Shown here one piece after another: positions 8,203-26,068 of a stretch of DNA of 64,000 nt. The stretch comes from Isotricha intestinalis (Eukaryota; Ciliophora; Litostomatea; Vestibuliferida; Isotrichidae). The notes under the pieces were generated by a model that was not told where the DNA came from, did not search any database, and saw nothing but the letters and a program-made list of their open reading frames with translations. The translations under genes were made by a program, and so were the position numbers. Within the stretch, counting starts at the first letter, position 1. Each line of letters begins with the position of its first letter. The DNA lies in contig JAJJLU010000352.1 in the NCBI GenBank assembly GCA_023807065.1, positions 1 to 64,000 of the forward strand. Reading direction: 5' to 3'.

Positions 8203-9699
8203 ATGGAAAAAACAAAATATTTAATTGTAATAATAACAATCCTAACAATATATATAATATATTCATTAATTAAACCAAAAAAAGAGGAATTTGATATAGT
8301 AATAGTAGGTTCAGGTTTAGCAGGATTAGTTTCAGCATATGAAAGTTTAAAATTATCAAATCGAAAATTAAAAATATTATTATTAGAAAGAGAATTAAAA
8401 TACGGTGGAAATTCAATTAAAGCAACAAGTGGAATAAATTTATTAAATACTGAAGTTCAAAAAAGGAAAAATATATCAGATTCATTTAATCGATTTTTCA
8501 ATGATACAATAATATCATCAAAGGAGAAATCAAATCCTCAATTAGTGAGTGAATTAATAAATGATTCTCAAGAAATATATAATTATTTGAAACAAATAAA
8601 TATCCACTTAACAGAAGTAAATATTTTAGGAGGACATTCAATTCCAAGAACTCATCGTCCTGAAAATTCTTCAATTGGATTTACTTTAATAACAAGTTTA
8701 TATAATATATTAACATTCAGTGGTGAATTATATATAAGATTTAATTCTACTGTAATTGAATTATTATATAATGAAAAATCAAATAGAATATATGGTTTAA
8801 AATATAAATATTTAGATAAAATAATTGAAATTAAATGTAATAATATTATTTTAGCTTGTGGTGGTTATGCAAATGATTTTGGAAATGATTCTTTATTAAA
8901 AGAATTTTCTCCTTTATATATGAATTTTCCAAGTACAAATGGTAATTTTAGTACTGGTTTAGGAATGAAAATTGCAAGGAAAATTAATGCTAAATTAATT
9001 GATATGAGTTATATTCAAATTCATCCTACTTCTTTTATTGATTTTAATGATAAATTTAATAAACATAAAATTTTAGCTCCTGAATTATTAAGAGGTATTG
9101 GAGGAATTTTAATTAATTTTAATGGTGAAAGATTTTGTAATGAGTTAGGAACTAGAGATTATGTAACTAAAAAAATTATTGAAAATTGCAATAAAATTGA
9201 TAATAATGAAATTGAACAATATCAATGTTTTTTAATTATTAATGAAAAAGGATTTAAAGATTATGGTTCGAACATTAATTTTTATTATAATAAAGGTTTA
9301 TTAAGGAAATATAATGATTTTAAAACTTTTTCTGAACAATATAATATTAATTATACTATATTAAATAATACAATATTTAAATATAATGAATATTATGATA
9401 AAGGGATAGATCCTTTTAATAAAAAAGTATTTTATACAAAATTTGATATAAATTCTCCTATTTATATTTCATTAATAACACCATCAATTCATTATACAAT
9501 GGGAGGAATAAAAATAAATAGAAATGCAGAGGTTATAAATAATAATAACAAAGTTATTAATGGATTATATGCTGCTGGAGAAGTAACTGGTGGAATACAT
9601 GGTGAAAATAGATTAGGAGGAAATTCTTTACTTGAATGTGTTGTTTTTGGGAGAAAAGCTGCAAGAAGTGCTTTTCATAATGTAAAAAATTTAAAATAA
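8203..9699 (+). CDS. Soluble-type fumarate reductase (FAD flavoprotein) with N-terminal membrane anchor
   Basis: 498 residues. It probably reduces fumarate to succinate with electrons from a reduced cofactor, as in yeast Frd1/Osm1, an electron sink under low oxygen. The FAD dinucleotide motif is GSGLAG at 36-41. Family signatures follow: YGGNSIKATSGIN, GGHSIPRTHR, HPTSF, LRGIGGILINFNGERF with the catalytic-region Arg, SIHYTMGG, and the C-terminal AAGEVTGGIHGENRLGGN. All active-site blocks seem present. Residues 6-23 are a hydrophobic helix before the flavin domain, so the enzyme is likely anchored or targeted to an organelle or the secretory pathway. There is no N-terminal FMN-binding domain and no cytochrome b5 domain. 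Confidence 0.9.
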   Translation: MEKTKYLIVIITILTIYIIYSLIKPKKEEFDIVIVGSGLAGLVSAYESLKLSNRKLKILLLERELKYGGNSIKATSGINLLNTEVQKRKNISDSFNRFFNDTIISSKEKSNPQLVSELINDSQEIYNYLKQINIHLTEVNILGGHSIPRTHRPENSSIGFTLITSLYNILTFSGELYIRFNSTVIELLYNEKSNRIYGLKYKYLDKIIEIKCNNIILACGGYANDFGNDSLLKEFSPLYMNFPSTNGNFSTGLGMKIARKINAKLIDMSYIQIHPTSFIDFNDKFNKHKILAPELLRGIGGILINFNGERFCNELGTRDYVTKKIIENCNKIDNNEIEQYQCFLIINEKGFKDYGSNINFYYNKGLLRKYNDFKTFSEQYNINYTILNNTIFKYNEYYDKGIDPFNKKVFYTKFDINSPIYISLITPSIHYTMGGIKINRNAEVINNNNKVINGLYAAGEVTGGIHGENRLGGNSLLECVVFGRKAARSAFHNVKNLK

Positions 9700-23740: not shown

Positions 23741-26068
23741 ATGTCTAAAATAAATAATATATGGGAAAAGTATAATAAAATAGAAATAATAGGTTCAGGA
23801 AAATTTGGTGATGTTTATAAAGCAAAAATTGGTAATCAATATGTAACAATTAAAAAAATAAATAAACTAAAAATAAATAAAAAACAATTATTAGAAGAAA
23901 CAGAAATCTTGAAAAAAATAGAATCAGATAATTTAGTGAAGTTAATCGAAAGAATTGAAATAGAAAATTCATTTTATATTATAAATGAATTTTGTCACTT
24001 AAATCTTCAAGAATATTTAAATAGAAGAAAAGAAGCTTTATCGATAGAAGAAATAAAAGAATTATTAATTGATTTAAATAAAGGATTTAAAGTAATGAAT
24101 AAAAACAATATAATTCATGGAGATATTAGTCTTTCAAATATTTTATTATCATTAAATAAAAATAATATAAATAAAGTATGTTTTAAAATATCTGATTTTG
24201 GATTAAGTGATATAAACGAAGAAGATTTTATAAGTATCAATGTATTAAAAGGATCATGTCAATTTATTCCTCCTGAATGTTTAAAAGGAAAAAAAATAAA
24301 TAATAAAGGTGATATATGGTCTTTAGGTATTCTTATTTATTATCTTTTATTTAAACAATACCCTTATAACGGAACAGAAATTCAAATCCTTAAACAAATA
24401 GAATCTAATAAAAAATTAAATGTTATAAATGATAAATTATTAGATGATTTATTAAAAAAAATGCTAAATCCTAATATTGACAAAAGAATTAACTGGGAAG
24501 AGTATTTTAATCATCCTTTTTTTAATAATAATAATGTAATTAATAATTTACCTTTTTTTAATATGACATGCGGTCAACATTCAAAAAATTTTTATGGTTA
24601 TTGTTCAGATTGTAAATGTAATATATGTGAATTATGTGATCATAATTCACATAATTTTATTCCTTTTTATCAAATATCTTTTAATCAAAATGAAATCAAT
24701 CAGATAAATAATTTATCTCAATTAATAAATAATAAATTAGAACAATTTATTAAAATTAAAAAAAATATTGAGGAATTAATAAATAAAATAAAATCAATTA
24801 AGGGTAATTCTTCAATATATGAAAAAGATAAAAATAATAATTATAAACAATATTTAATTGATTATTTAGAAGTATTAACTAAAAAAATAGAAATTAATGA
24901 AGATTTAATAAATATAAATTTTGCTCCTATTAAAAAAGAAAATAATATTAAATGTGAATATGATATTAAGAAGGGAAAAGATGATAAAGATAATTATTTA
25001 ATTCAAAGAATAATAAATTCCTATGAAGAAACAAAAAGAAATAATTCATGGTTAGAAGAAGAATCACCAAATAATGAAAAGGAAATAAAAGATAACTGTG
25101 AAATGTATTTAAATAATAAAAAAATAGATTTTAGTTATAAATATAAATTTCCAAAAGATGAAAAATATAAAATGCAAATATTTTTTAAAAAACCTTTATC
25201 AAATACAAATTATATGTTTTTTGATTGTAATAAATTAACTTCTTTGAATTTATCTAATTTTAACAGTAATTATGTTAAAAATATGAGAAGTATGTTCTAT
25301 AATTGTCGTTCTTTAACTTCTTTAAATTTATCTGATTTTTATACTAATAATGTAAAAGATATGAATGAAATGTTTTATGGTTGTCTTTCTCTAACTTCTT
25401 TAAATTTATCTGATTTTAATACTGATAATGTAAAAAATATGAGTGGTATGTTCTATAAATGTTCTTCTTTAACTTCTTTAAATTTATCTAATTTTAATAC
25501 TAATAATGTTAAACATATGAGTGGTATGTTCCGTGATTGTTCTTCTTTATCCTCTTTAAATTTATCTAATTTTAATACTAATAATGTTTATAATATGAGT
25601 TGTATGTTTTCTGGTTGCTATTATTTAACTTCTTTAAATTTATCTAATTTTAATACAAATAATGTCAATAATATGAGTTTTATATTCTCTAATTGTCGTT
25701 CTTTAACTTCTTTAAATTTATCTCATTTTAATACTGCTAATGTTAAAGATATGAGTGGTATGTTCTATGGTTGTTCTTCTTTAAAATCTTTAAATTTATC
25801 TAATTTTAATACTAATAATGTTTATAATATGAGTGGAATGTTCCGAGATTGTTCTTCTTTAACTTCTTTAAATTTATCTAATTTTAATACTAATAATGTT
25901 AAAGATATGAATAATATGTTCTGTGATTGTCGATCTTTAACATCTTTAAATTTAGCTAATTTTAATACCATTAATGTTGAATATATGGAAAATATTTTTA
26001 AAAATTTAAATAGGAAATGTGAAATCATTAGTAAAGATGAAAAAATGTTATCTGAAAAAAACAAATAG
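23741..26068 (+). CDS. Protein kinase - B-box - DUF285 (BspA-like repeat) fusion
   Basis: 775 residues ending in TAG. Residues 12-261 are a Ser/Thr-type kinase: glycine loop GSGKFG (18-23), Lys38, alpha-C Glu53, catalytic loop HGDISLSN (H126, D128, N133), DFG 152-154 and PPE 177-179. HGD replaces the usual HRD, but all catalytic residues are present, so activity is expected. Residues 277-305 are a B-box zinc finger (CGQH, CSDC, CELCDHNSH). A helical region with a probable coiled coil follows (about 315-420). Residues 499-758 are ten 26-residue DUF285 repeats (LTSLNLSNFNTNNVKNMSG type). No signal peptide or membrane helix is seen, so the repeats are predicted cytoplasmic, unlike most BspA-like proteins, which are surface-exposed. 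Confidence 0.88.
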   Translation: MSKINNIWEKYNKIEIIGSGKFGDVYKAKIGNQYVTIKKINKLKINKKQLLEETEILKKIESDNLVKLIERIEIENSFYIINEFCHLNLQEYLNRRKEALSIEEIKELLIDLNKGFKVMNKNNIIHGDISLSNILLSLNKNNINKVCFKISDFGLSDINEEDFISINVLKGSCQFIPPECLKGKKINNKGDIWSLGILIYYLLFKQYPYNGTEIQILKQIESNKKLNVINDKLLDDLLKKMLNPNIDKRINWEEYFNHPFFNNNNVINNLPFFNMTCGQHSKNFYGYCSDCKCNICELCDHNSHNFIPFYQISFNQNEINQINNLSQLINNKLEQFIKIKKNIEELINKIKSIKGNSSIYEKDKNNNYKQYLIDYLEVLTKKIEINEDLININFAPIKKENNIKCEYDIKKGKDDKDNYLIQRIINSYEETKRNNSWLEEESPNNEKEIKDNCEMYLNNKKIDFSYKYKFPKDEKYKMQIFFKKPLSNTNYMFFDCNKLTSLNLSNFNSNYVKNMRSMFYNCRSLTSLNLSDFYTNNVKDMNEMFYGCLSLTSLNLSDFNTDNVKNMSGMFYKCSSLTSLNLSNFNTNNVKHMSGMFRDCSSLSSLNLSNFNTNNVYNMSCMFSGCYYLTSLNLSNFNTNNVNNMSFIFSNCRSLTSLNLSHFNTANVKDMSGMFYGCSSLKSLNLSNFNTNNVYNMSGMFRDCSSLTSLNLSNFNTNNVKDMNNMFCDCRSLTSLNLANFNTINVEYMENIFKNLNRKCEIISKDEKMLSEKNK
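25235..26014 (+). repeat. Ten tandem 78-bp units encoding DUF285 repeats
   Basis: Exact 78-bp period (for example equivalent bases at 25471 and 25549). Central units are nearly identical in DNA, including synonymous positions, in TCTTTAAATTTATCTAATTT and the AATACTAATAATGT stretch. The first and last units are more diverged. This indicates recent unit duplication or conversion within the kinase gene. Confidence 0.9.

Follow-up and report, generated by a model that had tools for sequence, protein, structure and literature searches.

Proteins of the TRIM (RBCC) family combine a RING, a B-box and a coiled coil with a PRY-SPRY tail, which is unlike the DUF285, WD40 and MORN tails described below, and DUF285 (BspA-type) leucine-rich repeats (LRRs) are the repeats of a class of bacterial surface proteins. 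Ciliates, according to the portions of the Ichthyophthirius genome paper used here (PMC3341644), have expanded ULK, CAMK and other kinase families, and ULK is linked there to cytoskeletal dynamics. In the titles and abstract openings searched, a scope that lay outside most subscription journals and preprints, there was no mention of ciliate proteins that join a kinase to a B-box or to DUF285. Here we describe a gene which joins all three, at positions 23741-26068 of a 64,000-nucleotide stretch (the window, meaning the whole stretch of DNA analysed) from contig JAJJLU010000352.1 of the Isotricha intestinalis assembly. With a probability of about 0.42, we read its product as a member of a large and fast-turning-over family of cytosolic proteins, in which a kinase or pseudokinase head is followed by a B-box, helices and occasionally exchanged tails, and which would work as an assembly platform.

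The open reading frame (ORF) is uninterrupted, a TAA in the same frame stands nine codons before its ATG, and its parts are as follows:

23741..26068, plus strand, whole ORF of 775 residues and a stop, a single open frame from ATG to TAG
23771..24523, plus strand, protein kinase domain, residues 11-261 (Pfam Pkinase, E 8.2e-47; predicted fold)
24560..24664, plus strand, B-box zinc finger, residues 274-308 (Pfam zf-B_box; ligand conservation)
24686..24889, plus strand, helical stretch behind the B-box, residues 316-383 (AlphaFold2 monomer model)
24938..25225, plus strand, cap domain preceding the repeats, residues 400-495 (common to other DUF285 proteins of the genome)
25226..26005, plus strand, ten 26-residue DUF285/BspA-type LRRs, residues 496-755 (Pfam; repeat register)

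One line of evidence for the family reading is the contrast between the catalytic residues and the B-box. The window kinase retains Lys38 (VAIK), Glu53 of helix alphaC, Asp128 (HxD), Asn133 and Asp152 of the DFG motif (residues 152-154), but the description of an apparently active kinase given by the sequence-only reading is not supported in that form: the catalytic loop, HGDISLSN, has Gly at the position of the HRD arginine (127) and Ser130 at that of the catalytic-loop lysine, and the relatives lose catalytic residues repeatedly. Among the 79 scorable rows of an 80-row tree set (one row has a gap at a catalytic column), Lys38 was found in 78, the HxD aspartate in 46, the DFG aspartate in 59 and all three in 41, in comparison to 632 of 634 B-box ligand cells kept in the 80 rows; a Fisher test of aspartate cells versus ligand cells gave p 2.6e-38, the rows being related to one another. 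All three catalytic residues were present in 12 of 22 members of set A1, from the same genome, and in 29 of 52 of set A2, in comparison to all eight ligands in 20 of 22 and 57 of 57, respectively. A catalytic residue was lost in 39% to 48% of the scored relatives. Because a Pfam B-box had been one ground for choosing set A2 and the tree rows, a bias towards conserved ligands, 107 further proteins were checked. In these, 828 of 836 ligand cells were kept; 356 of the cells belong to 47 rows to which Pfam assigned no B-box, and 352 of those were kept. In the 101 scorable proteins, the other six having a gap, the HxD aspartate was present in 73, the DFG aspartate in 87 and Lys38 in all 101. Since the ligands and Lys38 are nearly fixed while the catalytic residues drop out repeatedly, it is the B-box that is conserved, as judged from these residues, and many of the heads are predicted pseudokinases. 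On the tree, loss of catalysis required at least 19 changes, 10 of which are forced by starred branches. This was a quick tree, supported by the Shimodaira-Hasegawa-like approximate likelihood-ratio test (SH-aLRT) only, and the catalytic columns were kept in during building. It leaves out P0002, P0032, P0035, P0042, P0050, P0052, P0053 and P0071, eight of the 45 three-domain proteins; set A1 leaves out L054-L057, L065, L068, L069 and L072, which are cut or contain stops, the window standing for L051, and set A2 leaves out P0017, P0032 and P0052.

The family is large, and its members differ in what follows the helices. When residues 1-440 were searched against the genome, 100 matches were obtained, which merged by position into at least 95 places, 15 of these 95 with in-frame stops; all family counts for this genome are lower bounds because 96 of 1372 candidates were scored. 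The kinase and B-box part was spanned in at least 57 places, 47 without stops and 10 with in-frame stops. Going by the listed coordinates, 17 of the 57 are followed by DUF285 on their own strand. In 16 of these the repeats share the open frame, and in one, C1949 (L070), a stop interrupts the gene and the repeats lie beyond it. The repeats are additionally visible in L064, C1332 and C377, giving at least 19 places where kinase, B-box and DUF285 share one frame. Six places (C1707, C1066, C236, C1145, C438 and C1127) matched a kinase, B-box and WD40 protein along its length, C217 (L079) continues from kinase and B-box into MORN, C979 has a different, charged tail, and several members stop after the helices at about 400 residues. 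Among the 120 public homologues listed, kinase and B-box were joined to DUF285 in 45, to WD40 in three and to MORN in four, and a short kinase and B-box query gave 1999 public relatives. The expanded family that the sequence-only reading had proposed to look for is thus present in this genome and the three-domain combination in the databases, and the fusion is beyond chance, as the trio recurs in 45 of the 120 homologues listed and at 19 sites within this genome. Contigs C741 and C1042 (G000) each carry two kinase and B-box genes on one strand, about 2 kb apart in C741, which suggests tandem duplication. A rough estimate hinted that family members might be over-represented near the ends of contigs, which we do not claim.

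When the DUF285 label was placed on the kinase and B-box tree, 11 changes were counted, 7 of them forced by starred branches, in comparison to 25.1 for shuffled labels. The tails have been gained or lost several times, though they are mostly inherited, and the clade of the window protein sits among mostly tail-less rows, separate from the main DUF285 clade. The changes counted exceed the true exchanges, since contig cuts account for some of the tail-less rows and a stop breaks the DUF285 gene L070. One public protein, P0002, is identical to residues 347-775 of the window protein (the last 429 residues) and 76% to 78% identical in the kinase part; as evidence of head exchange it was given no weight, either segmental exchange or a chimeric contig being able to produce it.

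Selection was estimated through composition-corrected codon models of the window gene against three paralogues (two for the kinase). The omega values were 0.01 to 0.07 for LRR core positions, 0.09 to 0.13 for the B-box, 0.25 to 0.26 for the kinase, 0.33 to 0.42 for the helical and cap part and 0.24 to 0.48 for strand and turn positions of the repeats. For repeat positions 2, 3, 18, 19, 21, 22, 25 and 26, omega was 0.53 to 1.17 with the composition of genome four-fold sites and 0.94 to 1.85 with intergenic composition; these positions were picked after viewing the variation among the window's own repeats, and the comparison is therefore not a blind test. The array has a constrained core and one freely varying face. 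A claim of positive selection on the array was considered and dropped, as Nei-Gojobori omega values of 2.0 to 2.7 on one LRR position set, which are due to AT bias, vanished once composition was modelled. Codon models in IQ-TREE, in which omega stayed at its starting value in 6 of 8 partitions, were not used.

The remaining properties of the protein agree with one intact frame holding a kinase, a B-box and ten 26-residue repeats, as had been described from the letters and as both Pfam and the repeat register indicate. The DUF285 match has an E of 3.1e-64 and 214.6 bits in comparison to a cut-off of 25, and its ten units, the first beginning at Cys496, keep a strict 26-residue register. The zf-B_box match has an E of 2.3e-5 and 24.9 bits in comparison to a cut-off of 24.1, and all eight zinc ligands are present (C277, H280, C288, C291, C296, C299, H301 and H304). 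The stretch behind it, modelled as helices at residues 316-351 and 368-383, may possibly form a coiled coil. In the Pfam scan the cap domain had no match other than the edge of LRR_5, and the whole protein had no RING, NACHT or NB-ARC match up to E 1. No membrane segment was found by hydropathy (the maximum over 19 residues is 0.87), and residues 1-40 lack hydrophobic character, a result of hydropathy only and not of a dedicated predictor. Since the kinase starts at residue 11 and hydropathy is low, the protein very probably has neither a signal peptide nor a membrane anchor, and it would be one cytosolic polypeptide; the earlier proposal of cytosolic repeats holds on these grounds. As to the type of kinase, human ULK1 ranked first in Foldseek, CDPK1 ranked first in the PDB sequence matches with ULK2 and ULK1 among the best, and DAPK3 and Aurora tied in VIA-align; the ULK grouping was judged from these rankings, which differ by method. 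The fold-comparison lists fill up with kinases or LRRs, and other folds are thereby not excluded.

In the working that we propose, the DUF285 array and its cap would serve for docking, the ligand being another protein or a surface, several copies would be assembled through the B-box and helices, and assembly would gather the heads, of which intact ones would phosphorylate neighbours or clients in trans and degenerate ones, keeping the ATP-site lysine, would act as pseudokinase partners or adaptors. With the assembly domain fixed, the enzyme optional and the surface free, a platform fits better than a simple enzyme. Several points weigh against this reading. The window copy itself may be weak or inactive as a kinase, given HGD and Ser130, and P0001, a public copy 99% identical, has Val where the window has Glu53. 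The catalysis labels are clustered on the tree, with 19 changes in comparison to a mean of 26.5 for shuffled labels, and catalytic loss is therefore partly inherited; by the same kind of comparison the tails are mostly inherited with their heads and not freely shuffled. On the variable LRR positions omega was never significantly above 1 in either composition model, and the coiled coil of TRIM proteins is longer than the helical stretch found here.

The same observations can be arranged in other ways. The family could be a ciliate ULK-like branch for cytoskeletal or cortical signalling, in which the tails, whether LRR, WD40 or MORN, anchor the head on fixed structures of the cell and no foreign ligand is sensed. 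We regard this as possible though doubtful; it draws on the first rank of ULK1 in Foldseek and the place of ULK2 and ULK1 among the best PDB sequence matches, on the ciliate ULK expansion and its cytoskeletal link as far as the cited portions of PMC3341644 go, and on the MORN and WD40 tails within the family. An immune-like role may also be possible. It would take the form of cell-autonomous defence or handling of prey and symbionts by a TRIM- or NLR-like repertoire, the LRR array sensing microbial or damage ligands and the head signalling; size of the family, stops in 10 of 57 places, many near relatives, variety of tails, the freely varying LRR face and the ciliate-type proteins in which DUF285 is fused to E2 and PARP, to a trypsin-like domain or to further intracellular domains would all suit it, but at the variable positions omega does not exceed 1 significantly and such turnover is expected of any large dispensable family, and we consider this role unlikely.

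In a further view the family drifts under relaxed selection, duplicates shedding catalysis and tails and only a few mattering for function. This would account for the stops within the frame (15 of 95 places), for catalytic residues being lost so often, for an omega close to 1 over part of the array and for the L070 repeats beyond a stop, but the 632 of 634 B-box ligands and the LRR core omega of 0.01 to 0.07 amount to strong constraint, found also in members without catalysis; we grade this view as already weakened, and improbable. An artefact, with kinase and repeats as separate genes or a hidden exon that makes the repeats extracellular in the manner of BspA, might be suspected since DUF285/BspA proteins such as P0205 and P0228 are named as bacterial surface proteins. 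It is very improbable in view of the uninterrupted ORF, the recurrence of the fusion in the listed homologues (45 of 120) and in 19 places of the genome, and the N-terminus that is not hydrophobic.

Both B-box and DUF285 are also found in other settings in this genome. All 150 scored candidates of the B-box search matched, out of 495 first-look candidates, some ORFs holding two. Among ten B-box proteins scanned, RING was above its curated cut-off in L030 only and below it in L041 (which also has MATH) and L029, WD40 was found in L023, L033 and L034, and DUF285 in L026. L003 has a B-box without a kinase, followed by DUF285. The 1209-residue ORF of L008, on the minus strand of G000:C961, encodes UQ_con (ubiquitin-conjugating E2), DUF285 and then a PARP catalytic domain, and Trypsin_2 precedes DUF285 in L019 (G000:C1656) and shares one frame with it also in C1724 and C1472. 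Among the DUF285 matches listed, one of 12 PARP matches and three of 24 Trypsin_2 matches were in one frame with DUF285, making these rare partners here, and among 120 listed public relatives of L008, PARP and DUF285 were combined in 74, some also with E2 or a kinase or with what we take, from their Pfam numbers, to be LIM, SNF7 or ubiquitin domains. One relative presumably combines NPL4 with DUF285.

A wider and rather unlikely possibility, which we put forward tentatively, is that gut ciliates evolved a cytosolic receptor-like repertoire, with DUF285 arrays on many heads (kinase or pseudokinase with B-box, E2 with PARP, trypsin-like, and NPL4, SNF7 or ubiquitin in public relatives), where live and dead kinases assembled by the B-box replace a TRIM-type ubiquitin ligase. 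Should the family reading itself be confirmed, the family would be one in which a TRIM-like scaffold had its enzyme head swapped for a kinase whose activity can be lost as long as the assembly domain is retained. It would offer a natural experiment on the roles of pseudokinases and on LRR arrays moving between surface and cytosolic use, and a testable candidate for cell-autonomous defence or prey and symbiont handling in gut ciliates.

A bacterial or viral origin of the architecture was also considered and, as far as the following two contig scans reach, rejected. The genome-contig scan gave 20 loci, all titled as bacterial metagenome-assembled genomes (MAGs), 23% to 35% identical and within query residues 4-327, and the viral-contig scan gave one locus matching residues 486-733 only. 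The whole architecture was absent from the bacterial MAG and viral-contig matches, in scans whose confirmation step was limited to candidates with a few peptide patterns. One DUF285 match, P0076, is named as a Prevotellaceae MAG surface protein, and may either be genuinely bacterial or stem from a contig that was misbinned.

The assembly consists of 57.3 Mb in 2153 contigs. The telomere pattern CCCCAA-(0 or 1)-CCCCAA-(0 or 1)-CCCCAA was found 957 times forward and 867 times in reverse, in comparison to 0 and 2 for the reversed control, and the matches listed, the first of the genome and nearly all CCCCAAT units, are placed as telomeres are, those on the plus strand where contigs begin and those on the minus strand where they end. 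The window carries long single-exon ORFs under the standard code at a GC content of 11% to 27% per kb, and a DNAAF5-like axonemal protein is encoded in the analysed DNA. The cited sections of the report on Muniziella cunhai, a trichostome gut ciliate (PMC11316547), describe a macronuclear genome that is rich in AT, uses the standard code and has the motif (CCCCAAT)n. Because of the telomeres, the standard code, the single-exon ORFs, the DNAAF5-like protein and the low GC, we read the assembly as the macronuclear genome of a ciliate, most likely a trichostome. Elsewhere in the window, positions 8203-9699 on the plus strand encode a FAD_binding_2 protein, which we take from its family to resemble soluble fumarate reductases, as would fit an anaerobe.

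In comparison to known systems, the family resembles NLRs and plant LRR receptor kinases, by analogy only, in an LRR array joined to a signalling part, in large size and in having many members that lack the HRD arginine; it differs in the window protein having no NACHT, NB-ARC or membrane segment and in its other domains and their order, and no homology is claimed. The repeats belong with the DUF285/BspA family, passing the Pfam cut-off with tandem 26-residue units, whereas the array differs from those of BspA/DUF285 bacterial surface proteins in being cytosolic, behind a kinase and B-box and without a signal peptide. ULK/CAMK-type ciliate kinases are matched in that fold and sequence are nearest to structures of CDPK1, ULK1/2 and DAPK/Aurora, in contrast to the HGD/Ser130 copy, the B-box and LRR fusion and the widespread catalytic loss of the window family. 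With TRIM (RBCC) proteins the family shares a B-box, a helical stretch and then an exchangeable C-terminal module, and RING with B-box and B-box with WD40 genes are present in the same genome; it differs in a kinase or pseudokinase where TRIM has a RING and in modelled helices of only 36 and 16 residues. The window protein is not a TRIM member because the RING is absent. Of the TRIM-like layout with a kinase replacing the RING that was suggested from the sequence, the B-box followed by a variable C-terminal module stands, and the replacement itself has some comparative support because RING and B-box genes occur in this genome, clearly in L030 and below the cut-off in L041 and L029. In general, we place the family with TRIM-like modular scaffolds.
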